Source: Actinomycetospora soli (lineage in GTDB: Bacteria > Actinomycetota > Actinomycetes > Mycobacteriales > Pseudonocardiaceae). From it: a stretch of 64,000 nt of DNA. Each line of letters begins with the position of its first letter. Position 1 is the first letter of the stretch. The notes beneath the pieces were generated by a model. That model was not told the origin of the DNA, did not search any database, and saw only the letters and a program-made list of their open reading frames with translations. Both the position numbers and the translations under genes were made by a program. Below are positions 32,442 to 62,848 of the stretch, piece by piece. The stretch is taken from positions 1 to 64,000 of the forward strand of contig NZ_JAJNDA010000016.1 in the NCBI RefSeq assembly GCF_021026295.1. The letters are read 5' to 3'.

Positions 32442-33653
32442 CTACTGCCCGTTGCGGGTCAGCGAGTAGGACGTCGTCTCCAGGCCGTCGCCGCCGATCC
32501 ACGGCTCGAACCCGGCCTGCACGCTCGTGAGGTACCAGCCCTCCTTGGCCTGCCCCCGCTTCTGCGCGTCGGCCACGAAGCCCGTGATGTTCAGGTCCTT
32601 GACCTCGGTGGTCTGCTGCTGGCGGACGTAGGAGATGGTCGGCAGGTCGGCCTTGCCGAGCCACACGTCGTAGCCGACGCCGTCGAGCGTGGCCGTGCCG
32701 ACCTTGTTGCCGATGGGCTGGACCCGGTCGGTGTGCTTGAGCCAGATCATCAGCTCCAGGCCCGTGGGGCGGCCGTCCTTGCGGGCGGTCGGGTCGAGCC
32801 AGATGTCGTAGGCGACGTTGTAGTCCCCGGACGACGGGGTCTTCACCGACCACGACGACCGCAGGTCCCCGAGGTCGGAGATCGGCCGCGGGAACGGCGT
32901 GCCCTTGGTGCAGTTGCCGTAGTTGCAGCCGAGGACGATCGACGGGTACGACGCCGGGCCGCTGTTGTTGCGGTGCTTGGCCTCGACCCGGAAGGCGGCG
33001 CTCGCCCCGGTCGGTCCGGCGCTCGGGCCGTCGAAGGCGACGATGCACTGCGGGGTGCTCGCGCCCCACAGCGAGTTCTGCACCTCGTAGCGACCGCCCG
33101 CGACCGGCGTCGACCCGAACTTCTCGCAGACCTTCTTCTCCGCACGGCCCGCCGAGGCGGCCGCGGTCGTGGCGCTCGGGGCCGTGGTGGTGGTGGTCGT
33201 CGGACCGTCCGGCGCGTCCGAGGCCTCCGGTGCGTCCGGCTCGGAGGTCGGCTCCGGCGTCGTCGACTCCGTGGCCTCCGGGGTCTCCGGGGTCTCCGGG
33301 GTCTCCGGGGTCTCCGGGGTCTCCGGGGTCTCCGGGGTCTCCGCCGGGCTCGCCGGCGTGAGGGTGCTCGTGGTCGGGGTGCCCGGCACGTCGGTCGTGG
33401 CCACGGCGGCCGGGACCAGGTCGACGGTCGCGGCGGCGGCCCCGTGCGGCAGGCCGGTCAGGACGGCCAGCGCGACGAGGGCCACTCCCCCGGCGAGCGT
33501 GCGCGCCGCGTCGGCGCGGAACCCCGCCCGCCGCTCGTGGCGTGCCGCGACCGCGGACCGGGCACCGCGGCGGGCCGAGCCGGCCCGCCGGTGCCGCCCG
33601 ACCCGCCGTCGGGCCTTCGGCGTCTCGCTCGCCGTCGATGACCGACCGTTCAT
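32442..33653 (-). CDS. Secreted glycoside hydrolase family 12-like protein 1
   Basis: 403 residues. A very basic N-terminal stretch (about 1-50) precedes a hydrophobic segment (LAGGVALVALAVLTGLP) and a likely AAA cleavage site. Then follows a Thr/Pro/Glu linker with seven ETP repeats (about 105-130). The GH12 domain (about 170-403) shows EVQNSLWGASTPQC, SYPSIVLGCNYGNCT and DLRSSWSV. The nucleophile region is LELMIWL, and AGFEPWIGG carries the likely acid/base Glu. Expected to act on beta-1,4-glucan outside the cell. ATG with GGGGAGGAC about 13 bases upstream. The catalytic domain is about half identical by eye to the neighbouring gene. Confidence 0.85.
   Translation of the reverse strand: MNGRSSTASETPKARRRVGRHRRAGSARRGARSAVAARHERRAGFRADAARTLAGGVALVALAVLTGLPHGAAAATVDLVPAAVATTDVPGTPTTSTLTPASPAETPETPETPETPETPETPETPEATESTTPEPTSEPDAPEASDAPDGPTTTTTTAPSATTAAASAGRAEKKVCEKFGSTPVAGGRYEVQNSLWGASTPQCIVAFDGPSAGPTGASAAFRVEAKHRNNSGPASYPSIVLGCNYGNCTKGTPFPRPISDLGDLRSSWSVKTPSSGDYNVAYDIWLDPTARKDGRPTGLELMIWLKHTDRVQPIGNKVGTATLDGVGYDVWLGKADLPTISYVRQQQTTEVKDLNITGFVADAQKRGQAKEGWYLTSVQAGFEPWIGGDGLETTSYSLTRNGQ
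33275..33345. repeat. 9-bp coding minisatellite (ETP repeats)
   Basis: Seven near-perfect tandem copies of a nine-base unit (GGTCTCCGG on the plus strand) encode the ETP repeats in the linker of the GH12 protein. Such arrays can vary in copy number between strains. Confidence 0.85.
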
Positions 33654-57560: not shown

Positions 57561-60500
57561 TCACTGCAGGCAGCGTGGCCCGAGCAGCGCCTTGAGGTCG
57601 CCCATCAAGGCGCCGGAGTTGGTGACCTTCAGCCCGTCGTCGAGACGCAGCACGTGGGACGCGCCGTTCGCGGCGAGCAGCGTCAGGTGGACCTCGCTCG
57701 GCCCGGGGTGGGCGACGAGGACCTCCTTGAACTTGCCGACCCGCTCCGGCGTGCACCGGGCGCTCTCGATCGTGACGCGCACGGGCGGAGCGGCCTGCGC
57801 GCCGGTGGACAGGTCGGGCACCGCGAGGTCCTCCACGAACAGGCTCACGCGGTCGTCCCGCTTGTTGACCTTCGCCTTGAGCAGCACGATCGCGTCCTCG
57901 GAGACGTCGATCGACACGGCCGCGTAGGTCCGCGGGAAGAACAGCACCTCGATGCCGCCGGCGAGGTCCTCGATCTGGGCCGACGCCCAGGGCTCGCCCT
58001 TCTTGTTCACCCGTCGGGTGACGCTGGCGAGGATGCCGCCCACCGTGACCTGCGCACCCTCCGCGACGTCACCCTCGAGGATCTTGGTGATCGGGGTGTC
58101 GGCGCGGCTGGCGAGCACGTGCTCGATCCCGTTGAGCGGGTGCCCGGACACGTAGAGGCCGAGCATCTCCCGCTCCAGGGCGAGCCGGTGCTTGGGCTCC
58201 CACTCGCCGTCGGGGACCTTCACGTCGAACATGCCCGTCGTGTCCACGGCCTCGGCGCCGTCGTCGGGTTCGTCGAAGCTCCCGAAGAGGTCGAACTGAC
58301 CGTCGGCCTCGGCCCGCTTGGTGGTCATCACCGCGTCGATGGCCTCGGCGTGCACCAGCGCGAGTCCCTTGCGCGGGTGTCCGAGCGAGTCGAACGCACC
58401 GGCCTTGATGAGCGACTCGACCGTCTTCTTGTTGCAGACCTGCTGCTCGACCTTGCGCAGGAAGTCCGAGAAGTCGGTGAAGTTGCCCTTCTCGCGGCGG
58501 CTGCCGACGATCGACTCGACGACGTTCGCGCCCACGTTGCGGATCGCGCCGAGACCGAAGCGGATGTCGGACCCGACCGGGGCGAAGTCGCGCACCGAGT
58601 CGTTCACGTCCGGCGGCAGCACCGTGATGCCCATGCGGCGGCACTCGGCGAGGTAGATCGCCGCCTTGTCCTTGTCGTCCCGGACGCTGGTGAGCACCGC
58701 GGCCATGTACTCGGCGGGGTAGTTCGCCTTGAGGTACGCGGTCCAGTACGACACCACGCCGTAGGCCGCCGAGTGCGCGCGGTTGAACGCGTAGTCGGAG
58801 AACGGCAGGAGGATGTCCCACAGCGTCTTGATCGCGGCCGCGGAGTAGCCGTTGTCCTTCATGCCCTGGGCGAAACCCTCGTACTCCTTGTCGAGGATTT
58901 CCTTCTTCTTCTTGCCCATGGCGCGGCGGAGCAGGTCGGCCTTGCCCAGCGAGTAGCCCGCGAGCTTCTGGGCGATCGCCATGACCTGTTCCTGGTAGAC
59001 GATCAGGCCGTAGGTCTCGCCGAGGACGTCCTTGAGGGGCTCCGCCAGCTCCGGGTGGATCGGCGTGACCTCTTGGCGCTTGTTCTTGCGGTCCGCGTAG
59101 TCGTTGTGCGCGTTTGCGCCCATCGGGCCCGGCCGGTACAGCGCGCCGACGGCGGAGATGTCGTCGAACTCGGTCGGCGCCATCCGGCGGAGCAGGTCGC
59201 GCATCGGCCCGCCGTCGAGCTGGAAGACCCCGAGGGTGTCGCCGCGCGAGAGCAGCTCGTAGGTGGCCTTGTCGTCGAGCCCGAGGTTGTCGAGGTCGAG
59301 CGGCTCCTTGCCGTTCAGCGTGATGTTCTTCAGCGCGTCGTCGATGATCGTCAGGTTGCGCAGGCCGAGGAAGTCCATCTTGAGCAGCCCGAGGGTCTCG
59401 CAGACCCCCATGTCGAACTGCGTGATGATCGCGCCGTCGGCCTCGCGACGCTGGATCGGGATCACGTCGATGAGGTTCTCCCTCGACATGATCACGCCGG
59501 CCGCGTGCACGCCCCACTGACGCTTGAGGCCCTCGAGGTCACGCGCGGTGTCGACGATCTCCTTGACCTGCGGGTCCGACTCGTAGAGCGCCCGCATCTC
59601 GGCGGCCTCGGAGTAGCGCTTGTGGCTCGGGTCGAACACCCCGGACAGCGGGATGTCCTTGCCCATGACGGCGGGCGGCATCGACTTGGTGATGCGGTCG
59701 GCCACCGCGTAGCCGGGCTGGCCGTAGAGCACGCGCGCGGAGTCCTTGATCGCGGCCTTCGCCTTGATCGTGGAGTAGGTGATGATCTGGGCGATCTTCT
59801 CCTCGCCGTACTTCTCGGTGACGTAGCGGATCATCTCGCCGCGCCGGCGCTCGTCGAAGTCCATGTCGATGTCGGGCATGGAGACGCGCTCGGGGTTGAG
59901 GAACCGCTCGAAGATCAGCTTGTGGTGGATCGGGTCGAGGTCGGTGATGCCCAGGACGTACGCCACGAGGCTGCCGGCGGCGCTGCCTCGGCCCGGCCCG
60001 ACGCGCAGGTTGACCGAGCGCGCGTAGTTCAGCAGGTCGGCCGTCACCAGGAAGTAGCCCGGGTAGCCCATCTGCATGATGACCGAGACCTCGTACTCGG
60101 CCTGCTTGCGGTAGTTGTCCGGGACGCCGTTCGGGAACCGCCAGTGCAGGCCCCGCTCGACCTCCTTGACCAGCCAGCTGCCCTCGGTCTCGCCCTCGGG
60201 GACCGGCGCCACCGGCTGCAGGTCGCGGCCCTCGGTGAACGTGATGTCGACGCGCTCGGCGATGGCCAGCGTGTTGTCGCACGCCTCCGGGAACACCGGG
60301 TCCCACTGCGCGCGCATCTCGGCGGCCGACTTCAGGTAGAAGTCCTGCGCGTCGAACCGGAACCGGTTCGGGTCGTTCATCGTCTTGCCGGTCTGCACGC
60401 AGAGCAGCACCTCGTGCGGCTTCGCGTCCTTCGCGTACGTGTAGTGCAGGTCGTTCGTCGCGAGGCCCGGCAGGTCGAGCTTCTTCTTGAGGTCGTAGAG

Positions 60501-61106
60501 GTCGTCGCGGACCCGGCGTTCGATCTCGATGCCGTGGTCCATCAGCTCGCAGAAGAAGTTGTCGCGGCCGAAGATGTCGCGGTAGTCGCTGGCGGCCTGC
60601 ATGGCGCCGTCGCGGTCGCCGTACTGGAGCAGGCGCGCGACCTCGCCCGACGGGCAGCCCGTCGTCGCGATGATCCCCTTGCCGTAGGTCTCCAGGAGCT
60701 CCCGGTCCATACGCGGCTTGTAGTAGTACCCCTCGAGGCTCGCGAGGCTGGAGAGCCGGAAGAGGTTGTGCATCCCCTCCGTGTTCTCCGCCAGGAGCGT
60801 CATGTGGGTGTACATCTCGCCCGGGTTGTCCTGGTCGGCCTTGACGCCGTTCAGGGTCGCCCGCTTGCGCTCGTGCCGGGACCCGGGGGCGATGTAGCCC
60901 TCCATGCCGATGATCGGCTTGACCCCGTGCGCCTTCGACTTCTTCCAGAACTCGTAGGCGCCGTAGGTGTTGCCGTGGTCGGTCATCGCGAGGGCCGGCA
61001 TGCCCATGCGGGCGGCCTCGGTGAACAGGTCGTCCAACCGCGCCGCGCCGTCGAGCATCGAGAACTCGGTATGGGTGTGGAGGTGGACGAACGAGTCGTC
61101 GGACAC
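57561..61106 (-). CDS. dnaE: DNA polymerase III alpha subunit
   Basis: 1181-residue replicative polymerase (DnaE1 type). PHP domain at the start ([20 protein letters not shown]); palm with the catalytic Asp pair in [16 protein letters not shown] (about residue 415) and the third Asp in [18 protein letters not shown]-adjacent regions; helix-hairpin-helix (about 880-910); OB fold (about 990-1070, [18 protein letters not shown]). GTG start with GGGAGG eight bases upstream. The small acidic gene lies 72 bases upstream on the same strand. Confidence 0.97.
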
Positions 61107-61178: not shown

Positions 61179-61415
61179 TCACTCGGGGGGCGGACCGTCG
61201 ATGCTGCTCACCGACCCGGGGCGGCGTGTCGGCGCCCGGGAGGCGTTCCGCGCGTCGCACGAGCCGCACGGACAGCACACCGAGCCGTCGCACGGGATCG
61301 GCCCGTAGGCCTCGTCGTCGTCCTCGTCGTCCCGGTCGAACGTGTCCTCCCAGGACGGGTCGTCGCCGGTCGACCACAGTCGCCCCAGCTCGGCCAGGTC
61401 CACGATTCGTCGCAT
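61179..61415 (-). CDS. Small acidic cysteine-containing protein upstream of dnaE
   Basis: 78-residue protein: MRRIVDLAELGRLWSTGDDP, a very acidic stretch FDRDDEDDDEAYG, then DGSVCCPCGSCDARNA with four cysteines in CCPCGSC, and a basic/Pro tail. ATG 61415 has GAGGGGGA seven bases upstream. A 15-base palindrome GTGTC-GATCG-GACAC (61428-61442) lies just before that. I do not recognise the family. A near-copy of an 18-base stretch lies upstream of both this gene and dnaE. Confidence 0.65.
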   Translation of the reverse strand: MRRIVDLAELGRLWSTGDDPSWEDTFDRDDEDDDEAYGPIPCDGSVCCPCGSCDARNASRAPTRRPGSVSSIDGPPPE

Positions 61416-61563
61416 GGCATCCCCCTCGTGTCGATCGGACACGCGGAGGGTGACGCAGGGGTCCGACAGCCTCGGCCGTTGATGCGAGGCGATCCGAGGC
61501 CACGTGGAGTGGACGGGCGCCTCGTGGGGCGCCTCGTCTCGGGCTGCGGCCGTCCTCGGCTCG

Positions 61564-61921
61564 CCTTGTCGCGGGCTACGGCCGACCTCGGCTCGCCTTG
61601 TCGCGGGGATTCACAACGACAAGGCACGGCGGGGGCGGGCACGGACCACGACAAGGCACTCGCGGGCAGGGCGACGTCCGGCCGCCGGTCTCCGTCGGCA
61701 CCCTGTCGTGGGCTCCGGCCGACCTCGGGTCGCCCTGTCGTTGTGAATCCCCGCGACAAGGCACCCGCGGGGCGGCGGCAGGCCACGACAAGGCACCCGC
61801 GGGGCGGCGGCAGACCACGACAAGGCACCCGTGAGGCGGCGGCAGGCCACGACAAGGCACCCGTGGAGCGGCGGCAAGCCGCGACAAGGCACCCGCGGGG
61901 CCGCAGCAAGCCGCGAAGGCG
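61564..61921. repeat. 32-bp-period repeat locus with inverted segments
   Basis: The octamer CGACAAGG, or its complement CCTTGTCG/CCCTGTCG, recurs at exactly 32-base steps. Minus-type at 61564 and 61596; plus-type at 61617 and 61649; minus-type at 61701 and 61733; plus-type at 61754, 61786, 61818, 61850, 61882 and a worn copy at 61914. The last six form a direct tandem array with few mismatches. 61596-61624 and 61733-61761 are a 29-base inverted pair with one mismatch. Period 32 is not a multiple of three and all frames drift, so it is not coding. It fills most of the gene-free 61416-61966. Confidence 0.9.
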
Positions 61922-61966
61922 CCCGCGGGGCGGGCCGGACCGGCCGACCCGCCGTCGGGAAGGGCC

Positions 61967-62848
61967 CTAGAGGAGCCCCGCACCCTCCAGGGCGGCGCGC
62001 ACCACCGCGGCCTCCTCGTCGGAGGCCTCGACGAGCGGGAGACGCAGACCCGGGCCGCACAGCCCGAGCATCGCCAGGGCGGCCTTGACCGGGATCGGGT
62101 TCACCGTGACCGACAGCGCGTCGAGGATCGGCTTGAACGCCGCCTCGAGTTCCGCGCGGTGCTCCGGCTCGCGGGCCATCCGGGCCATGAGGTCGCCGCA
62201 GACGTGCGAGGCGACGGAGATGACGCCGCACTCCCCCAGGTCCAGCACGGGGGCGTACAGCTCGTCGTTGCCGGCGTAGATGCCGAGGCCGTCGACCTTC
62301 GCGAGGTTCGCGTTCGCGGCCTGCTTGACGTAGTCGACGTGCTCGATCTGGGCCAGCTCGGCGAGCTCGTCGTTCGGCACGTCGCGGGAGACGCGCGACG
62401 GGATGTTGTAGAGCACGATCGGCTTGTCGGTGGCCTTCGCGACCTCGCGGTAGTGCGCGGCGAGACCCCGGCGGTTGGGCCGGTTGTAGTACGGGGTGAC
62501 CGAGAGGATCGCGTCGACGCCCGCGGCGGTCGCGCGCTCGGTCATCTCGACGGCGTGGCGGGTGTCGTTCGAGCCGGCCGACCCGACGATCGTCACGCCG
62601 GCGGGGCGCTCCGCGCAGGCCAGCTCGACGAGGCGCATGTGCTCCTCGATCGACAGGGTGGGCGACTCACCGGTGGTCCCGCACACGACGATCCCGTCGG
62701 AACCGTGGGCGGCCAGGTGGTGCATCAGGTCGACGAAGGTCTTCTCGTCGACGGCCCCCTGCTCGTCGAAGGGCGTGACGATGGCGGTGAGGACGGTTCC
62801 GAGCGACACCCGGACAGGTTGCCCTGTCGGGGTGCCGCCCGTCGACAC
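61967..62848 (-). CDS. dapA: 4-hydroxy-tetrahydrodipicolinate synthase
   Basis: 293-residue class I aldolase that condenses pyruvate with aspartate semialdehyde in the lysine/diaminopimelate pathway. CGTTGESPTLSIEEH (about residue 57), SVTPYYNRPNRRGL, VLYNIPSRVSRDV with the catalytic Tyr, and VDYVKQAANANL with the Schiff-base lysine. The GTG at 62848 lies 13 bases after mdh with no good ribosome site; a GTG 14 codons later (VSLGTVLTAIV) is possible. No dapB is adjacent. Confidence 0.94.
   Translation of the reverse strand: MSTGGTPTGQPVRVSLGTVLTAIVTPFDEQGAVDEKTFVDLMHHLAAHGSDGIVVCGTTGESPTLSIEEHMRLVELACAERPAGVTIVGSAGSNDTRHAVEMTERATAAGVDAILSVTPYYNRPNRRGLAAHYREVAKATDKPIVLYNIPSRVSRDVPNDELAELAQIEHVDYVKQAANANLAKVDGLGIYAGNDELYAPVLDLGECGVISVASHVCGDLMARMAREPEHRAELEAAFKPILDALSVTVNPIPVKAALAMLGLCGPGLRLPLVEASDEEAAVVRAALEGAGLL

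Follow-up and report, generated by a model that had tools for sequence, protein, structure and literature searches.

The window analysed here is a stretch of 64,000 nucleotides from Actinomycetospora soli (contig NZ_JAJNDA010000016.1), which carries an array of phased octamers between a dapA-type gene and dnaE. The dapA-type gene (61967..62848, minus strand) matches the Pfam family DHDPS, and its stop codon adjoins the array, which therefore sits in its 3' gap. The dnaE gene (57561..61106, minus strand) is an open reading frame (ORF) that owes its name to the original prediction, an earlier note on this DNA, and to a by-eye reading of its translation. The array consists of two copies of a four-site palindromic element that is intergenic and dispersed through the genome, and it is not specific to dnaE. 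In related species, a gene for a putative DNA-binding nuclease lies among copies of the same element. The whole analysis consists of sequence comparison and structure prediction; some of the compared genomes are drafts, and gene calls were made with a simple codon score.

The octamer array and its dispersed family

Between 61564 and 61889, nine exact copies of the octamer CGACAAGG are found, two on the minus strand and seven on the plus strand, together with two one-mismatch copies on the minus strand (61701 and 61733). Inside a block the octamers follow each other at exactly 32 bp, and the start-to-start steps between blocks are 21 bp (minus to plus) and 52 bp (plus to minus). The array unit is symmetric, < 32 < 21 > 32 >, and is present in two copies followed by three further plus-strand octamers; as a formula, the 93-bp element reads CCTTGTCG-N24-CCTTGTCG-N13-CGACAAGG-N24-CGACAAGG. 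Element A (61564..61656) has its octamers at 61564-61571 and 61596-61603 (minus) and at 61617-61624 and 61649-61656 (plus) around a 13-bp centre (61604-61616), with the same 32-21-32 spacing as at other loci. Element B (61701..61793) has octamers at 61701-61708 and 61733-61740 (minus, one mismatch each) and at 61754-61761 and 61786-61793 (plus). Its right arm is extended in tandem on the plus strand (61794..61933) with a 32-bp period, comprising octamers at 61818, 61850 and 61882 and a worn copy near 61914. A degenerate extra octamer with two mismatches lies 32 bp outside element A (61532..61539, minus strand). In one of the two elements, the 13-bp centre looks as if it had been flipped between the inverted octamers: by eye, the centre of element B (61741-61753) is the reverse complement of that of element A, and the arms have the same orientation in both.

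The original prediction had described twelve octamers in a strict 32-bp phase, with only the octamer itself kept outside the six-copy block. The twelve are present when the two one-mismatch copies and the worn remnant are counted, so not all of them are exact, and the phase is strict inside each block but does not run through the array as a whole. The statement on conservation was nearly right; conservation also extends to the 13-bp centre (TTGTGA[A/T]TCACAA) and to a CCR ahead of the outer octamer.

The octamers are not a product of chance, because the whole window holds 14 exact copies against a shuffle mean of 2.24 and a shuffle maximum of 7, and because the genome (6.52 Mb, 69 contigs) contains 54 exact octamer pairs with 32-bp spacing and none of the reversed pattern. 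With up to two mismatches, 112 matches are found in this genome versus 8 for the control. Allowing one mismatch, 46 cores are found, and they lie in 26 fetched loci when the window's own is counted; two of these loci (L084 and L089) are contig ends that probably derive from a single broken locus. Throughout the fetched loci, the < 32 < 21 > 32 > plan is whole or partial, and the elements are single or clustered up to four.

Related genomes were also searched for the octamer pair. The exact 32-bp pair is present in six of 61 genomes, namely the window's, G007 (34), G001 (11), G016 (9), G015 (1) and G026, which is the sole genome outside the genus and has a single match. The inner 29-bp core, with at most one mismatch, is matched in seven of the 18 genomes of the genus, with 46, 59, 24, 10 and 7 sites in five carriers and one site each in G003 and G010. 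The single core of G003 looks like a relic and that of G010 like a chance match. The family thus occurs in number in five of the 18 genus genomes, often at orthologous gaps and for the most part at the 3' ends of genes. In addition, a scan of genome contigs with a stricter palindrome, which may omit records very near the window's genome, gave 10 loci, all of them in Actinomycetospora.

Site architecture and genomic position

Position profiles from five species, in which element counts allow up to three mismatches and cover the fetched loci, show a dyad with the half consensus TCACAACGACAAGG(Y), about 23 weakly conserved bases and then CCRCGACAAGG, without strong conservation further out. A same-strand octamer with at most one mismatch lies exactly at +32 in 231 of 332 half-elements (next best offset 73, n = 19). 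Outer octamers within two mismatches are present on both sides in 121, on one side in 24 and on neither side in 21 of the 166 elements with flanks. The half-sites vary independently, since identical halves make up 8.2% versus 8.5% after permutation, and the likeness of arms is 0.486 within elements versus 0.485 between elements. Variants of the octamers are also uncompensated across the two sides (inner, 16 versus 19.9 expected; outer, 33 versus 29.6 expected). As the halves vary independently, the code looks like that of DNA half-sites and not of a hairpin, and we read the octamers as putative double-stranded half-sites on one helix face. The idea in the original prediction that a core at fixed spacing in both orientations would serve a multi-contact protein is supported by this independence, with sites spaced by roughly three helical turns (32 bp) and two (21 bp), and by the presence of a candidate with a DNA-binding fold encoded among element copies. 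A CRISPR array was considered and rejected on the basis of the dyad symmetry and of octamers in both orientations (an orientation test only; no cas search was made).

Two other readings concern the array's structure and its neighbour. The inverted octamers could be transcribed hairpins, that is, RNA or single-stranded DNA stem-loops acting as terminators or mRNA stabilisers; the elements do sit at gene 3' ends, and six of them fold as single-stranded DNA with z scores of -4.0 to -5.9. However, inverted octamers alone would yield such scores, the direct tandem octamers at 32 bp contribute no stem, and the 147 unique cores show no general compensation, the sole exception being a mild pairing excess at one of six centre positions (offset 5, z 3.1), which together make this reading very improbable. 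The original prediction had further proposed that the sites might serve a protein of replication or of the nucleoid at dnaE, and the closeness of the array to dnaE and the phasing of the sites can be cited for it. Against this, the element occurs in 25 other fetched loci of the same genome, and the dnaE-dapA gap, which contains it in the window's genome, G001 and G007, is without it in G015, G016, G003 and G010. A role specific to dnaE is already largely refuted and scarcely credible. Part of what the original prediction had named as evidence against itself was thus found: the gap lacks the array in several congeners, and the array belongs to a dispersed repeat family.

Many elements have orthologous flanks between species. 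In 36 orthologous element pairs, 481 of 576 outer-octamer positions (83.5%) and 973 of 1728 spacer positions (56.3%) are identical, compared with 75.6% and 46.7%, respectively, in random cross-species pairs chosen by the same best-match procedure. Orthologous pairs are therefore only slightly more alike than random pairs, and octamer identity is mostly family consensus. At common positions, spacers have drifted nearly to the unrelated level and octamers have been kept, which fits selection on the octamers or turnover by copying; the random-pair baseline makes selection at each site less compelling but leaves the case for copying untouched. The gaps that hold elements (n = 116, leaving aside 7 elements at contig edges) were classified with a simple coding-score gene caller as 54 convergent, 49 co-directional and 13 divergent, versus 6, 24 and 45, respectively, for 75 neighbouring gaps longer than 150 bp without elements. 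This comparison is no more than indicative, the background gaps being neighbours of elements and insertion itself lengthening a gap.

Nuclease genes and their repeats

Elements are present in all five carriers at one locus, and in G001, G015, G007 and G016, this locus holds a gene of about 293 residues, flanked by elements on both sides in three of the four. A close relative of the gene is found at none of the other fetched element loci, and the orthologue is single-copy. In a genus-wide search, an orthologue with at least 75% identity was found only in these four genomes, and the matches listed for the other 14, the window's genome included, reach at most 39%. That all four orthologues fall among the five carriers of 18 has a chance probability of about 0.0016, a hand calculation that is no more than indicative because the species are related. 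The model of the 293-residue protein aligns with AbiEi and with Vsr / I-Bth0305I-type folds, and the protein is predicted to combine a DNA-binding part resembling AbiEi antitoxins with a Vsr / I-Bth0305I-type nuclease. Its sequence match to DUF559 / MTES_1575 (PF04480, PF18741) is weak, and a Pfam search of the protein gave no HUH (Y1) tyrosine transposase domain.

In the window's genome, the nuclease locus is split over two contig ends (L089:4800-4956 and L084:1-100). Elements and the final bases of the nuclease gene lie at one end and are followed by another reading frame, and the other end starts near a G run. This frame we take to resemble the end of an IS3-type transposase, and Pfam gave no match for its 28 residues. 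The gene is broken or unassembled here, and such arrays can break draft assemblies exactly at these genes.

A tree of dapA, a single gene, places G003 inside the carrier clade (clade support 100/100; inner fork uniting G003 with G001, G015 and the window's genome G000, 87/86). G003 has no orthologue of the 293-residue gene, one relic core genome-wide and no element in six of the seven gaps viewed. A worn element (L247:569-660, near 931.5 kb of G003:C1), in which every octamer is mismatched and one outer step is 31, fits decay after gene loss; L247 and L248 of G003 were placed by one flank only. Probably, G003 lost the gene and the elements together. At another position of this genome (G003:C1:5802200-5803400), there is an open stretch where carriers have an element, with what by eye is an HNH-type nuclease.

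Relatives of this gene were also compared with their own flanks in the wider order. The order is that of GTDB, which we take to be Mycobacteriales; NCBI places the genus in Pseudonocardiales. A domain search located the nuclease family in 35 of 41 genomes from the order, and several paralogues from other Actinomycetospora species lie between inverted repeats whose sequence is their own. A flank test compared 450 bp upstream with 450 bp downstream for 32 genes, 20 from the genus and 12 from other genera of the order; the latter came from 30 fetched loci, of which 17 with open frames of at least 520 residues were unused and L277 was dropped at a contig edge. In this test, 21 of the 32 genes beat all but at most two of 62 mismatched flank pairings and 8 of the 12 other-genus genes beat all 62, versus none of 60 ordinary control genes at the matching rank cut. 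The 60 controls (of 116 candidates) came from fetched loci of the element-bearing Actinomycetospora genomes and G003, not from other genera. The control pairings of the nuclease genes include orthologues with common repeats, and the test is therefore conservative. One of the 21 passing genes, L224, looks like a chance match.

The palindromes of six of the eight passing other-genus loci (L268 and L269 were left out) were joined and searched in the six genomes. Among the matches listed, each genome matches its own palindrome only, at no fewer than about 40 places in G047 and at least 17 in G066, 11 in G053, 9 in G067 and 6 each in G049 and G041, as counted by hand with both-strand duplicates merged. 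The N-terminal parts of all eight other-genus proteins match AbiEi, and their C-termini match MTES_1575/DUF559, the latter clearly by sequence. In the pairs L269/L270 and L215/L219, taken as orthologous on a visual comparison of their neighbours, the repeats on the two flanks have changed jointly between species. The window's genome also has a second repeat family, which brackets another AbiEi-Vsr-type gene (L218, around G000:C55:322363-323884) with seven copies of GAGTGGTC.CT.AGGCAGGTT units at a period of about 103-105 bp; variants of it lie at C44:400 kb, C65:236 kb, C69:216 kb, C33:227 kb and elsewhere. In G009 (L222), a 52-bp near-perfect palindrome with the centre CCTATAGG precedes a further paralogue, and a variant of the palindrome follows that gene.

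Interpretation and other features of the window

The explanation we favour, and hold to be reasonably probable, is that the element works like REP/BIME, with a cognate DNA-binding nuclease in the role of RAYT, and that cutting and repair copy the elements. Binding, cutting and mobilisation by the nuclease are what we infer from these comparisons. The AbiEi-like part would bind one octamer per monomer, at two inner and two outer sites on one DNA face, and the Vsr-like part would nick or cleave the DNA within or close to the 13-bp dyad. Break repair would then copy elements into one another and, rarely, into new gaps, and this copying would lead to dispersal, tandem growth and joint change of flanking repeats. 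Copies would collect at gene 3' ends because insertions cost least there, and the sites around the nuclease gene would regulate it, as AbiEi sites do. More generally, the nuclease may spread the elements, police them or use them as binding stations.

REPtrons have been described (PMC8266576 and PMC3733652) as an enzyme gene, usually present once, that is surrounded by dispersed extragenic palindromes of its own, and the partners named there are RAYT-type tyrosine transposases. According to the same papers, REP/BIME repeats resemble the present family in being short, palindromic and intergenic, in forming inverted pairs and tandem clusters and in lying mostly in convergent or co-directional gaps. 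In both cases, the cognate gene is mostly single-copy, has no evidence of its own mobility and is near or flanked by repeats, and gene and repeat presence are often correlated. The present partner is, in contrast, predicted to be an AbiEi-Vsr-fold protein and not an HUH tyrosine transposase, and the elements of the window form four-site arrays whose spacers vary, instead of one conserved hairpin. The position profiles of the five species also contain no conserved GTAG (or CGTC) tag. Lacking both an HUH transposase and the tag, the system is filed as REP/RAYT-like with an unrelated partner and not as a member. AbiE type IV toxin-antitoxin systems share an AbiEi-like DNA-binding protein as judged from the model (AbiEi including Rv2827c, PMC7319586), but here a C-terminal nuclease domain is fused and the sites are spread over the genome. 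No AbiEii (DUF1814) toxin gene lies beside the G001 gene, the one locus inspected, whose neighbours encode YceI/CarboxypepD_reg and DUF1275 proteins. The predicted catalytic fold is also that of the Vsr-fold homing endonuclease I-Bth0305I and the Vsr repair nuclease, whereas the candidate is tied to dispersed repeats and has an AbiEi-like DNA-binding part; no phage match for it and no homing event of the single-copy orthologue were seen. DUF559 / MTES_1575 endonuclease-domain proteins belong to the same family by sequence, and neither their link to own palindromes nor the window's repeat family was found described in the open literature searched.

Two further explanations start from the same observations. 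The elements could be a domesticated platform of genome-wide binding sites (a 3' roadblock or terminator, a nucleoid clamp or an insulator of converging genes) kept by selection and not by mobility, which would agree with positions common to species, with octamers kept as spacers drift and with the convergent bias of the element gaps over their neighbours. The element is, however, missing from the dnaE-dapA gap of four congeners, and G003, nested within the carriers, lacks the orthologue and, in the seven gaps viewed, all elements but a worn one in the seventh; the element set is therefore dispensable. Joint change of flanking repeats (L215 versus L219; L269 versus L270) is also unpredicted by pure site conservation, and this explanation appears unlikely. 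Alternatively, the nuclease could be a parasite of older, independent REP-like repeats, a homing-type gene inserted into one of them as its target; this would predict many repeat families that have no gene. Its predicted fold is a homing-enzyme fold and the single-copy orthologue sits among elements, but different paralogues have different repeat families and G003 is without both the gene and intact elements, so we consider this quite unlikely.

Several points weigh against the proposed nuclease-driven copying. Conservation of the octamers is by itself no proof of selection at each site, and positions are largely common between species, so that movement must be slow or past. No target-site duplications were found; gaps without elements were seen, and the flanks are too diverged to define ends. 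Eleven of the 32 nuclease genes fail the flank test. They include L205, L206 and L207, three of the four genes that bear the window's repeat family (with 3, 6 and 21 of 62 controls as good); these four serve among each other's controls and share the repeat. In G007 (L134), elements lie on one side of the nuclease gene only, upstream. The assembly of the window's genome has no intact orthologue (best match 32%), and elements can therefore stand, at least for a while, without the gene. Three of the 13 gene-free genomes (G004, G008 and G014) are less than 90% complete, and the association of gene and elements within the genus is not phylogenetically independent.

Extended to the order, the proposal is that AbiEi-Vsr (DUF559/MTES_1575) nucleases each maintain and spread a private family of extragenic palindromes. 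This would be a second, independently evolved REPtron-like system, in which a nuclease binding double-stranded sites takes the place of the HUH transposase, and it would account for many actinobacterial repeat families; we put it forward tentatively, at close to even chances. Here, a nuclease family unlike RAYT is tied to its own repeats by position, distribution and joint change, which gives DUF559/AbiEi-type proteins a testable function and provides an independent case for studying the dispersal or policing of extragenic palindromes by a nuclease.

A small ORF of 87 residues (61179..61442, minus strand; 61179-61403 according to the simple gene caller) separates the array from dnaE, and for this ORF a Pfam search gave no family at 0.001. 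Elsewhere in the window, a clean 9-bp tandem repeat with 8.6 copies of CTCCGGGGT was seen at 33267-33343, and positions 1-207 contain the end of a 16S ribosomal RNA gene on the minus strand.
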